A DNA stretch of 64,000 bases, taken from NCBI RefSeq assembly GCF_014199525.1, contig NZ_JACHNU010000011.1:1-64000 (forward strand). The letters are read 5' to 3'. Under the pieces are notes generated by a model. It did not search any database. It was not told where the DNA came from and saw nothing but the letters and a program-made list of their open reading frames with translations. Made by a program: the position numbers and the translations under genes. Origin of the DNA: Conexibacter arvalis. Its GTDB lineage: Bacteria; Actinomycetota; Thermoleophilia; Solirubrobacterales; Solirubrobacteraceae. How positions within the stretch are numbered: the stretch's first letter is position 1; the number at the start of each line of letters is the position of its first letter. Positions 57,148 to 62,999 of the stretch are shown piece after piece.

Positions 57148-57184
57148 GGTACGCATGAGTACCGTTGTGGTACGCATGCGTACC
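57148..57184. promoter_or_regulatory. Tandem palindromic operator upstream of P450
   Basis: GGTACGCATGCGTACC at 57169-57184 is a perfect 16-bp palindrome. GGTACGCATGAGTACC at 57148-57163 is the same with one change. They are spaced 21 bp apart, two helical turns, so two dimers could bind on one face. This is typical of TetR-family sites. Confidence 0.75.
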
Positions 57185-57208
57185 GGAGTCGAGCGAAAGG
57201 GTGGGACG

Positions 57209-58588
57209 ATGGCGCGGGCGGTCACCGCGGGCGAGACGAGCCTTCCGCCGGGCCCTCGCCTGCCGAAGGCGGTCCAGGACGCCGCGGCGCTGGCGCGGCT
57301 GCAGCCGTTCCTGCGCCGCTGTCAGCGTCGCTACGGCGACCTCTTCACGCTGCGCCTGCACGGCTTCGGCGACGTCGTCGCCGTCGGCGAGCCGGCGCTC
57401 GTCAAGCGCACGTTCCTCGCCTCGCCGACGACGCTGCACTCGGGCGAGGGCAGCCCGCTCGGCCCGATCCTTGGTGCCAACTCGCTGCTGGTGATCGACC
57501 GCGACGTGCACATGCGCCAGCGCAAGCTGCTGCTGCCGCCGTTCCACGGCGAGCGGATGAGGGCGTACGAGCCGCTGATCGAGCGGATCACGCGCGAGGA
57601 GATCGCCCGCTGGCCGGAGGGCGACGCCTTCCCGGTCGCGCCGACGACGATGCGGATCACGCTGCGGGCGATCCTGCAGGCCGTCTTCGGCGCGCGCGGC
57701 GAAGTGCTGCGCGAGCTCGAGCGGCTGCTGCCGCGGTTCACGACGCTCGGCTCGGCGCTGACGCCGGTGCCGCAGCTTCACCGCGACCTCGGGCGCTGGA
57801 GCCCGTGGGGCCGCTTCAAGCGGATGCGCGCCGAGGTCGACGCGCTCTGCGACCGGCTGATCGACGAAGCGCGCCGCGACCCCGCGCTGGCCGAGCGGCC
57901 CGACGTGCTCGCGCTGCTGGCGCAGGCGACCGACGAGGACGGCGCGCCGATGACCAACGCCGAGATCCGCGACCAGCTGATGACGATGCTCGCCGCCGGC
58001 CACGAGACGACGGCCGCGCAGCTGGCATGGGCGGTCGAGCGGCTGCGACGCCAGCCGGAGGCGCTGACGCGGCTGGTCGCCGAGGTCGACGCGGGCGGCC
58101 GCGCCTGGCGCGACGCGACGATCCGCGAGGTCCAGCGGACGCGGCCCGTGATCATGTTCACGTCGCGGCTCGTCAAGGAGCCGTTCGAGCTCGGCGGGCA
58201 TTTGCTGCCGCAGGGCACGCGGATCGTGCTGCCGGCGGCGCTGACCCACTACGACGCCCGCTTCTTCCCCGAGCCGGCGCGCTTCGACCCGCAGCGCTTC
58301 CTCGACCGCAAGCCCGACACGTACACGTGGATCCCGTTCGGCGGCGGCGTGCGGCGGTGCATCGGCGCGAGCTTCGCGCACATGGAGATGGACGTCGTGC
58401 TGCGGACGATCCTCCAGACGTGGGAGCTGCTGCCGGCGGGGCCGGGCGAGCCGCCCGAGCGGCTGCGCTTCCGCGGCGTCGCCTACGCGCCGTCACGCGG
58501 CGGCGAGGCGCGCGTGCGGCGGCGGCGGCGCGATCGCGCGGCGGACGGCGCGGCGCCGACAAAGCGCGCGGCGGCCGCGGTCGGCTGA
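57209..58588 (+). CDS. Cytochrome P450 (CYP135/138-like)
   Basis: This 459-aa P450 begins LPPGPRLPKAVQDAAALARL, then has I-helix AGHETTAAQLAWA, ExxR motif EVQRTRP and haem-binding FGGGVRRCIGASFA with Cys384. The wording follows mycobacterial CYP135/CYP138 proteins. It is soluble and needs external ferredoxin and reductase; no redox partner is encoded nearby. A lipophilic substrate is likely but unknown. GGGTGGGA before the ATG at 57209 supports that start; the frame beginning at 57155 lies inside the operator. The convergent TetR gene downstream is the likely repressor. A basic low-complexity tail (VRRRRRDRAADGAAPTKRAA) ends the protein. Confidence 0.92.
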   Translation: MARAVTAGETSLPPGPRLPKAVQDAAALARLQPFLRRCQRRYGDLFTLRLHGFGDVVAVGEPALVKRTFLASPTTLHSGEGSPLGPILGANSLLVIDRDVHMRQRKLLLPPFHGERMRAYEPLIERITREEIARWPEGDAFPVAPTTMRITLRAILQAVFGARGEVLRELERLLPRFTTLGSALTPVPQLHRDLGRWSPWGRFKRMRAEVDALCDRLIDEARRDPALAERPDVLALLAQATDEDGAPMTNAEIRDQLMTMLAAGHETTAAQLAWAVERLRRQPEALTRLVAEVDAGGRAWRDATIREVQRTRPVIMFTSRLVKEPFELGGHLLPQGTRIVLPAALTHYDARFFPEPARFDPQRFLDRKPDTYTWIPFGGGVRRCIGASFAHMEMDVVLRTILQTWELLPAGPGEPPERLRFRGVAYAPSRGGEARVRRRRRDRAADGAAPTKRAAAAVG

Positions 58589-58652
58589 GCTGCGCTCCGG
58601 CGGCACGCGCTCGCCGCGGTCGGCTGCGCGCGCGCCGGCCGTGGTCGGCTGA

Positions 58653-58676
58653 CCGGCGGGCTCAGTGGCCCGCCGG
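58653..58676. terminator. Hairpin at 3' end of TetR gene
   Basis: CCGGCGGGC (58653-58661) pairs perfectly with GCCCGCCGG (58668-58676) around TCAGTG, which holds the TetR stop codon. It probably terminates both the P450 and TetR transcripts. Confidence 0.65.
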
Positions 58677-59276
58677 CCGCACGTGCTCGGGCGCGAGCGC
58701 GCCCTTGATCACCTCGGCGGCGGCGACCCGCACCTCGTCGAGGCCCTCGCCCGACTCGACCGTGTGGGCAACCAGCTCGCGCATCCCGCCGACGAGCATC
58801 ACCGCCTTCGCGCGCGAGACCGGCTCGATCCCCTCGCGCTGCATGCTCTCGGTCGCGACCAGCCGCATCAGCAGCTCGGCGAAGCTCTCGATCCCGGCCC
58901 GCTGCCGCGCCGCGCCGCGCTCGCCGAGCGCCGGCATCTCGCGGTGGAAGCTGACGGTCAGCTCCGGCTCGGCGGCGATCGCGTCGAGGTAGGCGCCGAG
59001 CGCCTGGTCGACCTGCGCCTCCCACGGCGCGGCCGGGTCGACCGCCTCCGCGACGGCCGCGGCGAGCACGTCGCCGAGCGTGTCGAACAGCGCGAGGAAG
59101 CAGTCGTCGCGATCCTCGAACTGCTCGTAGAAGGAGCGCCGCGAGGTGCGCGCGTGGGCGACGATGTCGGTGATCTTCGTCGCGCGGTAGCCGCGCTCGC
59201 GGATCGACTGCGCGAGGCCGGCGATCAACCGGTCGCGGTGGCTCGTCCCGAGCGGAAGCTGCGGCGAATCGACCAT
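58662..59276 (-). CDS. TetR-family transcriptional regulator
   Basis: This 204-aa protein has a TetR helix-turn-helix at residues about 14-60 (GLAQSIRERGYRATKITDIV followed by AHARTSRRSFYEQFEDRDDC). A ligand-binding domain with an actinobacterial TetR_C character follows (WEAQVDQALGAYLDAIAAEP). It is convergent with the P450 gene and is the nearest TetR to the tandem palindromes at 57148-57184, so repression of the P450 is the natural hypothesis. A TetR partner for P450 genes is common in actinobacteria. Its own promoter, on the right side, shows no copy of that palindrome. Confidence 0.92.
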   Translation of the reverse strand: MVDSPQLPLGTSHRDRLIAGLAQSIRERGYRATKITDIVAHARTSRRSFYEQFEDRDDCFLALFDTLGDVLAAAVAEAVDPAAPWEAQVDQALGAYLDAIAAEPELTVSFHREMPALGERGAARQRAGIESFAELLMRLVATESMQREGIEPVSRAKAVMLVGGMRELVAHTVESGEGLDEVRVAAAEVIKGALAPEHVRPAGH

Positions 59277-60622: not shown

Positions 60623-61027
60623 TCACGCCGCCGCAGGCAATGCGGCGGTCACGTCGGTGTGGCCGAAATCGTCGCCCTTCCAGAGCAGTGGCTCGCCGCG
60701 CGCCTTCGCGAGCGCGTACGCGAAGCAGTCGCCGAAGTTGAGCCCCGCCGGATGGCCCGAGCCCTTCCCGAAGTCGCGGTAGGCCTCGCGCGCGGTGCGC
60801 CCGTGCTCGGCGGTGACGGGGGCGACCTCGATGCCGGCGACGGCGAGCAGCTCGTCGAGCCGTCGGCTCGCGACCGGGTCGCCGGCGCGGTCGACGACGG
60901 CGCCGGCCTCGACGTAGCTCGCAGCCGAGATCGCTCGCTGCTGCGCCGCCTCGATCGCGTGTGCGTACCGGTCGGCGTCCTCTTCGGCGAACAGGATCGC
61001 GATGAGCGCCGACGTGTCGACGATCAT
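60623..61027 (-). CDS. vapC: PIN-domain ribonuclease toxin VapC, second locus
   Basis: This 134-aa PIN protein has all four acidic landmarks: [20 protein letters not shown], the Glu in [12 protein letters not shown], Asp in [13 protein letters not shown] and [13 protein letters not shown] at the C-terminus. This subgroup is very like mycobacterial VapC. The ATG overlaps the antitoxin stop by 4 bp. It would cleave a specific RNA when freed from antitoxin. It shares little sequence with the VapC at 4047-4463, so the two loci are independent acquisitions. Confidence 0.93.
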
Positions 61028-61281
61028 CGCGGCAGGCCGTCGGCGTCGTAGAGCAGCGCGCCGTGATCGAGCGCGCGCACCTCTGCCGGCACGCGGCTGG
61101 CGACGTCGCGGCCGATCGCGAGCATCCGCTCCGCGGCTCCCTGCCCCGGCTGCGCGGCGAGCAGGCGGTCCCGTCGCTCGCGCAGGGCGGTGGTGACCGC
61201 GGCGGTCATGCTCTCGCCCGTCAGCGACGCGACCTCGCGCGCCAGTCGCTGCGTCTCGTCGTTCTTGATGTTCAACGCCAC
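61024..61281 (-). CDS. vapB: VapB-type antitoxin (Rv0623-like)
   Basis: This 85-residue protein begins [20 protein letters not shown] then [19 protein letters not shown], which is the Rv0623/PSK antitoxin opening. The DNA-binding N-terminus is followed by a toxin-binding tail ([20 protein letters not shown]). I chose GTG 61281 because family members start here; longer frames to 61320 or 61338 add a basic segment. A -10-like TAGAAT lies 8 nt before this GTG, so the transcript may be leaderless. It probably represses its own operon with VapC. Confidence 0.88.
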
Positions 61282-61289
61282 GACGACCA

Positions 61290-61316
61290 ATTCTACCCTC
61301 GCTCTCCTCCTGTCCA
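61290..61316 (-). promoter_or_regulatory. Promoter of vapBC-2 (leaderless type)
   Basis: On the bottom strand TGGACA (61316-61311) and TAGAAT (61295-61290) are separated by 15 bp, and the GTG start of vapB is 8 nt after the -10. No ribosome site is close to that GTG. Confidence 0.45.
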
Positions 61317-61428
61317 CCATCGCCCGGCCGATGGCCACCTAGAGCGTCGTCCGGCGGTGTGCAAGCGGTCCTAGATCCCTGTGGTGACGTGGAATGAACG
61401 TGTTGGATTCTTCGCGGTGGAGTGAGGT

Positions 61429-61477
61429 TTGACATGTTCGGCTATATAGATTAGCCTTTCAGCTATGAGTCTTAGCT
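61429..61477 (+). promoter_or_regulatory. Promoter with two tandem operators over the start codon
   Basis: TTGACA (61429-61434) and a weak TAGCCT (61452-61457) are 17 bp apart, and the ATG follows 7 nt later. Overlaid are two 17-bp dyads 21 bp apart: GGCTATATAGATTAGCC (61440-61456) and AGCTATGAGTCTTAGCT (61461-61477), sharing GCTAT-N5-TTAGC. The second spans the start codon at 61465. The TetR encoded downstream is the likely ligand. Confidence 0.7.
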
Positions 61478-62427
61478 ACGTGAATGTGGACGCCGGTCGG
61501 ATCGCGTACGAGGTGGCCGGCGAGGGGCCGCTGGTCGTCGGCGTGCACGGCATGGGCGACCTGCGCTCCGCATACCGCCACACCGTCCCGGCGCTCGTCG
61601 CCGCCGGCTTCCGCGTCGCGACCTTCGACCTGCGCGGCCACGGCGACAGCGACGCGACCTTCTCCGCCTACGACGACGAGGCCGCCGCCGGCGACCTGCT
61701 GGCGCTGATCGACCTGCTCGGCGGCGGCCCGGCGCTCGTGCTCGGCAACTCGATGGGCGCCGCCGCGGCCGTGATCGCCGCCGCGCGAGCGCCGGAGCGG
61801 ATCTCCGGGCTGGCGCTGCTCGGCCCCTTCGTGCGCGACCCGGAGTCCGGGCGGTTGAAGGAGCTGGCGATGCGGGCGGCGCTGCTCGAGCCGTGGGGCC
61901 CGGCCGCGTGGAAGGCCTACTACGGCTCCTGCTTCCCCGGCCGCAAGCCGGCCGACTTCGACGCCCATTGGGCGGCGGTGCGCGCGAGCCTCTCCCGACC
62001 CGGCCGCTGGAGCGCCTTCCGGCGCACGACGCGCACCAGCCACGCGCCGGCCGAGGCGGCGCTCGGCGAGGTGCGCGCGCCGGCGCTCGTCGTGATGGGG
62101 ACGGCCGACCCCGACTGGCCCGACGCGACCGCCGAGGCCCGCTGGGTCGCCGACGCCCTCTCCGCCGAGCTGCTGCTCGTCGATAGTGCCGGCCACTACC
62201 CGATGGCCGAGGAGCCCGAGCAGGTCAACCCGGCCCTCGTCGCCTTCGCGCGGAAGGCGTTCGCGGGCGCGGCCGGCGAGCACGGCAGCGCGAATGGCCC
62301 GGGCGGCGAGCGTGGCGGCGCGAATGGCGCCGCCGGCGAGCGTCGCGGCGGCGGCGCGGCGGGCGGACCGCGTGGCGCGGCGGGCGGCGGAGCGGCCGGC
62401 GGCGACACCCTCGCGGAGGCCGCCTGA
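61465..62427 (+). CDS. Alpha/beta hydrolase with Gly-rich tail
   Basis: This 320-aa protein has the alpha/beta-hydrolase core at residues 1-265: VVGVHGMGDLRSAYRHTVPA, TFDLRGHGDSD, nucleophile Ser in LGNSMGAAAAV, Asp in GTADPDWPD and His in DSAGHYPMAEEPEQV. The catalytic triad is complete. From about 268 to the end it is a low-complexity tail with roughly ten-residue repeats (GEHGSANGPG, GERGGANGAA, GERRGGG). The ATG lies within a tandem operator and about 7 nt after a -10 box, so translation may start on a leaderless mRNA. The stop overlaps the TetR ATG by one base. It is probably a detoxifying esterase or lactonase controlled by its own repressor. Confidence 0.9.
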   Translation: MSLSYVNVDAGRIAYEVAGEGPLVVGVHGMGDLRSAYRHTVPALVAAGFRVATFDLRGHGDSDATFSAYDDEAAAGDLLALIDLLGGGPALVLGNSMGAAAAVIAAARAPERISGLALLGPFVRDPESGRLKELAMRAALLEPWGPAAWKAYYGSCFPGRKPADFDAHWAAVRASLSRPGRWSAFRRTTRTSHAPAEAALGEVRAPALVVMGTADPDWPDATAEARWVADALSAELLLVDSAGHYPMAEEPEQVNPALVAFARKAFAGAAGEHGSANGPGGERGGANGAAGERRGGGAAGGPRGAAGGGAAGGDTLAEAA

Positions 62428-62999
62428 TGGCGCGGGCAGGGCTGACGCCGGAGCGGGTCGTCGCGCGCGGCGCGGAGCTGGCCGACGAGGTCGGGCTCGA
62501 GCGGCTGACGCTCGCGATGGTCGCGCAGGCGTTCGGCGTCGCGCAGCCAAGCCTCTACAAGCACGTGAGAGGGCTCGACGCGCTGCTGCAACAGATCTCC
62601 GCGCTGGCGACCGCCGAGCTGGCCGATGCGCTCGCCGACGCCGCCGCCGGCCGGGCCCGCGGCGACGCGCTCCGCGCGGCGGCGACCGCGTACCGCGCCT
62701 ACGCGACCGCCCACCCCGGCCGCTACGCCGCGACCCAGCGCGTCCCCGACCCGGCCGACCCCGCGCACGTCGCCGCCGGCGAGCGGGCGGTCGGCGCGAT
62801 CGCCGCCGTCCTGCGCGGCTGGGGCCTCGACGGCGATGACGCGATCGACGCCACCCGCGCCCTGCGCAGCGCCCTCCACGGCTTCGTCACGCTGGAGCGG
62901 GCCGGCGGCTTCGGCATGCCGCAGTCGGTCGACCGCTCCTTCGACCAGCTGGTCGCCGCGCTCGAGGTCGCCCTCGCCGCCTGGCCGGCGCCCGCCTGA
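62427..62999 (+). CDS. TetR-family regulator with WHG domain
   Basis: This 190-aa protein has an N-terminal helix-turn-helix (TPERVVARGAELADEVGLER then LTLAMVAQAFGVAQPSLYKH) and a TetR_C_33/WHG-type C-terminal domain (YRAYATAHPGRYAATQRVPD; LRSALHGFVTLERAGGFGMP). The ATG overlaps the hydrolase stop (TGATG), so both come from one transcript. It is the expected repressor of the dyads at 61440-61477 and hence of its own operon. The inducer is probably a substrate of the hydrolase. Confidence 0.93.
   Translation: MARAGLTPERVVARGAELADEVGLERLTLAMVAQAFGVAQPSLYKHVRGLDALLQQISALATAELADALADAAAGRARGDALRAAATAYRAYATAHPGRYAATQRVPDPADPAHVAAGERAVGAIAAVLRGWGLDGDDAIDATRALRSALHGFVTLERAGGFGMPQSVDRSFDQLVAALEVALAAWPAPA

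Follow-up and report, generated by a model that had tools for sequence, protein, structure and literature searches.

A candidate tandem operator over the promoter and start codon of a predicted leaderless hydrolase–tetR operon in Conexibacter arvalis

Introduction

The Tet repressor of Tn10 and Tn1721 uses two operators; it differs from the system described here in its divergent tetA/tetR promoters, its efflux-pump target and the sequence and spacing of its operators. Tn10 TetR and the regulator studied here belong to the same family and carry the recognition-helix motifs QPTLYWH and QPSLYKH, respectively. In Rhodobacter sphaeroides, the TetR-family protein AcuR represses its own operon, acuR–acuI–dddL, from which a leaderless mRNA starting at the AUG was mapped by 5'-RACE (PMC3017554). 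The AcuR operator, an inverted repeat overlapping the promoter, was shown by mutation, and the layout was found in relatives; the same paper also gives tetR of Tn1721 as leaderless (PMC3017554). The nreAXY operon of Mesorhizobium is leaderless and autorepressed as well, with a compact dyad operator in its promoter (PMC12724321). In Mycobacterium tuberculosis, the TetR-like repressor Rv3160c controls its own operon, with palindromes at the -10 region (PMC7810876).

We analysed 64,000 nucleotides of Conexibacter arvalis (contig NZ_JACHNU010000011.1, positions 1 to 64,000; hereafter the window), near the end of which a hydrolase gene and a tetR gene form an operon. This operon resembles the AcuR system in its TetR-family regulator, its leaderless layout and an operator over the promoter, the last two being predicted here. 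AcuR, in contrast, has one 8-bp inverted repeat with a 6-bp spacer, another operator sequence, the regulator gene in first position and a known inducer, acrylate (PMC3017554). The operon was not assigned to the AcuR orthologue group: AcuR has the operator TAATAGAC-n6-GTCTATTA and an adjacent acuI, whereas the window has RGCTA-N7-TAGCY and an alpha/beta hydrolase. The regulator of nreAXY belongs to the CsoR/RcnR family, its single operator lies between -35 and -10, and its inducer is nickel (PMC12724321). Instead of two tandem 17-bp dyads, Rv3160c has a single stretch in which an outer 12-bp inverted repeat encloses an inner one of 8 bp, and its partner is an oxygenase; no overlap of operator and start codon was seen in the available part of that paper (PMC7810876). 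The locus is of a kind already known, an AcuR-like TetR operon predicted to be leaderless, and embodies no new regulatory principle.

The literature search covered the open literature. Among the matches listed, no paper described an operator of the hydrolase–tetR type. Nor did those matches from the open literature describe a tandem pair, an operator arm that contains the first base of the start codon in operons for enzymes of two folds, the set of promoter registers or the residue–base association reported below.

Operon and neighbouring genes

Both genes lie on the + strand, and the ATG of tetR overlaps the stop codon of the hydrolase gene by one base:

61465-62427, + strand: alpha/beta hydrolase, 320 aa, first gene of the operon (PF12697, E 3.1e-24)
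62427-62999, + strand: TetR-family regulator with a TetR_C_33 domain, 190 aa, Lys45 after SLY (PF13305, E 1.6e-31; PF00440, 24.8 bits at a cut-off of 24; alignment with Tn10 TetR)

The regulator combines a TetR_N helix-turn-helix (PF00440) with a TetR-type C-terminal domain (PF13305), as expected of the TetR family. Its sole structure match across most of its length was PDB entry 1zk8 (E 1.6e-32, residues 3-176), a TetR-family protein with SLYN at the recognition position. No operator or function was found for 1zk8 in the open literature; one structure-classification study names it with TetR.

Gly/Ala/Arg-rich repeats form a C-terminal tail of the hydrolase; in the DNA they correspond to tandem repeats of 30 and 48 bp at 62266-62405 of the window. 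The Virgisporangium homologue of the hydrolase (locus L040; 268 aa) has no such tail. Just upstream of the operon, on the - strand at 60626-61338, a PSK_trans_fac (Rv0623-like) gene is followed by a PIN-domain gene, a pair that is probably a VapBC toxin–antitoxin system. At 57155-59276, a cytochrome P450 gene (+) is convergent with a second TetR_N gene (-).

Putative operator dyads

Two palindromes lie at the start of the operon and were assigned to no strand:

61440-61456, no strand: operator dyad 1, GGCTA-N7-TAGCC, GGCTATATAGATTAGCC (sequence and conservation in homologous loci)
61461-61477, no strand: operator dyad 2, AGCTA-N7-TAGCT, AGCTATGAGTCTTAGCT (sequence and conservation)

Each is 17 bp long with perfect 5-bp arms, RGCTA-N7-TAGCY, and dyad 2 follows dyad 1 by 21 bp. 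The original prediction had named two 17-bp dyads with a 21-bp period, which the sequence confirms. It had spelled the motif GCTAT-N5-TTAGC; the palindromes stand, and this spelling was dropped because the fifth letters of its half-sites are unpaired and break the symmetry.

In the genome of 5,200,601 bases, RGCTA-N7-TAGCY occurs in exactly two places, which are these dyads. The looser GCTA-N7-TAGC occurs in five, two of them the dyads and three lone sites elsewhere. A 16-letter double pattern with up to three mismatches gave one perfect place, the dyads, and seven others with three mismatches each. We rejected a second operator pair in this genome, since every other place has at least three mismatches in 16 letters. 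Reversed patterns run as a control gave 72, 525 and 564 matches, against 2, 8 and 5 for the true patterns. Their word content differs (GAT and ATC in place of TAG and CTA), so they were not taken as a null and shuffles were used instead.

Promoter and start codon

The following signals were assigned around the dyads:

61429-61434, + strand: -35 hexamer TTGACA (sequence; TTGA or TTGC at offset -12 or -11 from dyad 1 in 51 of 55 loci with the window's layout)
61452-61457, + strand: predicted -10 element TAGCCT, of the form TAnnnT (sequence; same offset in homologous loci)
61465-61467, + strand: ATG start codon and predicted transcription start (spacing from the -10 element, no Shine–Dalgarno motif, comparison, RefSeq homologue)

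The hexamer TTGACA starts at offset -11 from dyad 1, at the left edge of the interval first predicted (61429), and is separated from TAGCCT by a 17-bp spacer. TAGCCT consists of the right arm of dyad 1 (TAGCC) and the first linker base, T, so the operator overlaps the predicted -10 element. We take TAGCCT to belong to the actinobacterial TAnnnT type of -10. A stock sigma-70 scan of 61300-61600 reported no promoter; it requires at least four of six matches to TATAAT, and TAGCCT has three, so the TAnnnT reading depends on comparison.

Seven nucleotides separate TAGCCT from the A of the ATG. The left arm of dyad 2 ends on this A, and no other base of the codon lies within the arm. The ATG at 61465 has no Shine–Dalgarno (SD) motif, and the hydrolase ORF contains no earlier start codon. 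In homologous loci, TAnnnT stood at the -10 offset in 55 of 59 cases with an ORF-opening ATG at +25, versus 17 of the 52 other loci, and none of the 59 had an SD-like motif upstream of that ATG. The start that RefSeq gives for a homologue on a Rhodococcus plasmid is the equivalent ATG, at +25 of its dyad. The 5' end of the mRNA is therefore predicted at about the A of ATG 61465, which would make the transcript leaderless, as originally proposed; promoter geometry and the absence of SD motifs from all 59 such loci support that proposal. Cover of the -10 element and the start codon by the dyads, also part of the prediction, finds support in the same arrangement in 55 of 111 loci.

Conservation of the operator pair

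Within the order, homologues of the TetR came from 15 of 61 relatives at E 1e-20, from 50 of 232 genomes at E 1e-30 and from further regions; named genomes contributed 80 loci, retained from 507 candidates. Without duplicates the set comprised 127 loci (79 named, 48 from the order), with Micromonospora over-represented among the named ones. CTA-N7-TAG was present upstream of tetR in 117 of the 127 loci, and any other spacer from 2 to 16 in at most 13. Exact CTA-N7-TAG pairs occurred 72 times at a period of 21 and at most twice at each other period. Upstream sequence of 700 bp or more was available for 124 loci. A 21-bp pair with a score of 10 or higher out of 12 was present in 111 of them, compared with one of 620 dinucleotide shuffles; a good 21-bp pair was missing in 13. 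When the TetRs were collapsed at 70% identity, the pair was kept in 56 of 66 cluster representatives, exactly in 32.

Named carriers include Micromonospora, Motilibacter, Virgisporangium, Catellatospora, Nakamurella, Nocardia and metagenome bins labelled Dormiibacterota. By sequence comparison, the palindromes near the tetR gene of C. arvalis are thus conserved and linked to its TetR subfamily. The prediction that they are paired operators of the downstream TetR (62427-62999) gains support from this linkage and from the tracking of residue and base reported below. A scan for CTA-N7-TAG-N8-CTATG matched in 25 of 232 genomes; its control also matched in many, and the scan was given no weight.

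Four Nocardia loci (L071, 2944; L083, 2943; L088, 2941; L098, 2944) carry a YCTA-N7-TAGR pair about 50 bp upstream of tetR, and no hydrolase homologue was found in the stretch around the pair. On two Streptomyces plasmids, exact sites lie 20 bp apart, immediately upstream of tetR.

Promoter registers

The 111 loci with the pair were assigned to registers by one fixed rule. Class A, the layout of the window, combines TAnnnT at offsets 12-17 with an ATG at +25 and was found in 55; as noted, 51 of these have the -35 match. On a quick TetR tree, this layout requires at least 11 changes. The first protein has the HxHxDH motif of MBL-fold enzymes in 12 of the 55 class A loci, and the three that were checked all match PF00753.

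In a second register (14 of 111 loci), TTGA or TTGC lies within dyad 1 and is followed by an SD-less ATG at +40 or +41. TAnnnT stands at offsets 28-33 in nine of these loci, and five have none at the expected -10. Relative to the dyads, promoter and start codon are displaced 15-16 bp downstream in these 14 loci, so that the dyads cover the -35 and -10 region and stop short of the likely start codon. The system can therefore do without cover of the start codon. Loci L070, L074, L075 and L082 were first counted as having the ATG at +25 and later placed in this register, because their dyad 1 contains TTGA and a long ORF opens at a second ATG, at +40.

Another 40 loci have an SD-preceded start farther downstream, and two fit no register. 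Taken over the 111 loci, promoter and start codon seem to shift as a block of 15-16 bp relative to a fixed pair. In two of the leadered loci (L008 and L148), an SD-like AGGAG lies within dyad 2, which thus overlaps a translation signal there too.

Candidate recognition residue and half-site base

Position 2 of the half-site varies symmetrically; in dyad 1 it was G/G in 65, C/C in 20 and A/A in 10 of the 111 loci. The base went with the residue after SLY in the TetR: Lys with G in 68 of 68 cases, Asn with A in 11 of 14 and Ala, Val or Ser with C in 20 of 22, while His was found with mixed bases (three C, one A, one G). In an alignment with Tn10 TetR, the residue of C. arvalis, Lys45, falls opposite the tryptophan that follows LY, a position which we take to be on the DNA-reading helix.

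A held-out set comprised 28 more distant loci, out of 41 places found besides our own genome and one training genome in 296 genomes of the phylum; held-out and training loci had a single 40-mer in common. The rule was scored against the base most frequent among all exact sites of a locus within 1300 bp, a scoring fixed after the held-out sites had been seen, and was right in 19 of the 20 loci with an exact site, the one miss being a tie; the remaining 8 of 28 had no exact site within 1300 bp. Successive sites were spaced by 20 bp (five times), 21 bp (five times) and 22, 32, 35 and 6 bp (once each). A 21-bp pair scoring at least 10 was present in 8 of 28 held-out loci and in 0 of 280 shuffles.

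Residue and base were clustered on the TetR tree. Each of two tests had two well-supported independent contrasts (three and five over all branches), and the sign tests were not significant. With so few joint changes on the tree, relatedness explains much of the raw association. One residue of the recognition helix, Lys45 in this case, is put forward as a candidate for a simple recognition rule for the half-site base.

Origin of the operon

The TetR of C. arvalis was nearest to those of Motilibacter (L027), Virgisporangium (L040) and Micromonospora, with up to 73% identity, whereas the best identity among the 61 relatives searched was 60%. At the inspected loci of those relatives, the first gene mostly encodes an MBL-fold enzyme. 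Together, these observations suggest that the hydrolase–tetR operon (61465-62999) was acquired horizontally. Tree support around this TetR was weak, and it fell in no well-supported set.

Discussion

The dyads, their period, their linkage to a TetR subfamily, the promoter register and the absence of an SD motif were established by comparison, and from them we infer binding, repression, induction, a ligand and the exact transcription start. The same paired layout in many related bacteria makes an ordinary self-repressing switch of unusually compact design very probable: the dyads would be the autoregulatory operator pair of the hydrolase–tetR operon, on which two TetR dimers would keep RNA polymerase off the promoter. 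Since 21 bp make two helical turns, dimers bound to the two RGCTA-N7-TAGCY dyads would sit on one side of the DNA and span it from within the promoter spacer to beyond the transcription start, thereby excluding RNA polymerase. A small-molecule ligand, perhaps a substrate or product of the hydrolase, might free TetR from the DNA and so induce hydrolase and TetR together. The mRNA would begin at the A of the ATG, which places the start codon in the second operator as well.

It had originally been suggested that repression could block both transcription and translation initiation. The block to RNA polymerase is the most likely mode of action. A repressor on the DNA already prevents mRNA synthesis, which leaves a translation block unsupported as a separate action. 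Dyad 2 is incomplete in an mRNA from 61465, and the AUG of this mRNA is unpaired in the predicted fold; this fold and the second register (14 of 111 loci) led us to reject a direct translation block by the repressor. For a transcript from 61461 or 61440, a 5-bp hairpin of the whole dyad including the AUG is predicted.

If transcribed, both dyads would give 5-bp hairpins, and the AUG would occupy loop and stem of one of them; they could be conceived as RNA elements of a 5' leader, exerting translational control or attenuation, rather than as DNA operators. We consider this very improbable. In 55 of 111 loci, the promoter geometry predicts an mRNA that begins at the AUG, and a 21-bp period with a central N7 suits paired protein sites. 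Compared with shuffles, the fold is weak (z -1.7; 14 of 200 shuffles equal or better), and there was no Rfam match. It is also very improbable that the dyads bind a different regulator, such as the TetR at 58662-59276 or a global factor, with the co-transcribed TetR acting elsewhere. A second TetR_N protein is indeed encoded about 2 kb upstream, but the dyads track the subfamily of the co-transcribed TetR across the order and into other phyla. They also persist where the first gene encodes an unrelated MBL-fold enzyme or where tetR comes first, as in Nocardia, and their variable base follows the residue after SLY of this TetR.

An unlikely alternative, to which we give somewhat more room, retains the operators as proposed and supposes a short leader or another start, with the start codon away from the 5' end. 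The 40 related loci of 111 with an SD-preceded start farther downstream are in its favour. Against it, the ORF of C. arvalis has neither an earlier start codon nor an SD motif, TAnnnT at offsets 12-17 accompanies this ATG position in 55 loci, and RefSeq chose the same ATG in the Rhodococcus plasmid homologue.

For the subfamily as a whole, we give an even chance to a broader picture. A widespread group of TetR proteins may use a near-fixed tandem operator, two CTA-N7-TAG sites usually 21 bp apart, as a scaffold on which the promoter sits in a few registers: over the -10 element and start codon, leaderless; over -35 and -10, apparently leaderless; or with an SD-containing leader. A residue of the Lys45 type would set the half-site base, and one switch would serve two unrelated hydrolase folds. 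If this is true, one and the same A serves the initiation codon and the operator core CTA (CTATG) in the first register, and the other arm lies in codons 3-5; bases needed to start translation would then also be read by the repressor, and the two functions would have to evolve together.

The analysis provides an operator that can be tested, together with a simple candidate rule of recognition, for the TetR_C_33 subfamily, which occurs in Actinomycetota and beyond and for which none of the matches listed from the open literature gave an operator. The hydrolase–tetR switch could serve as a compact sensor, provided that its ligand is known. The homologous loci form a natural series of how operator, promoter and start codon trade places in evolution.
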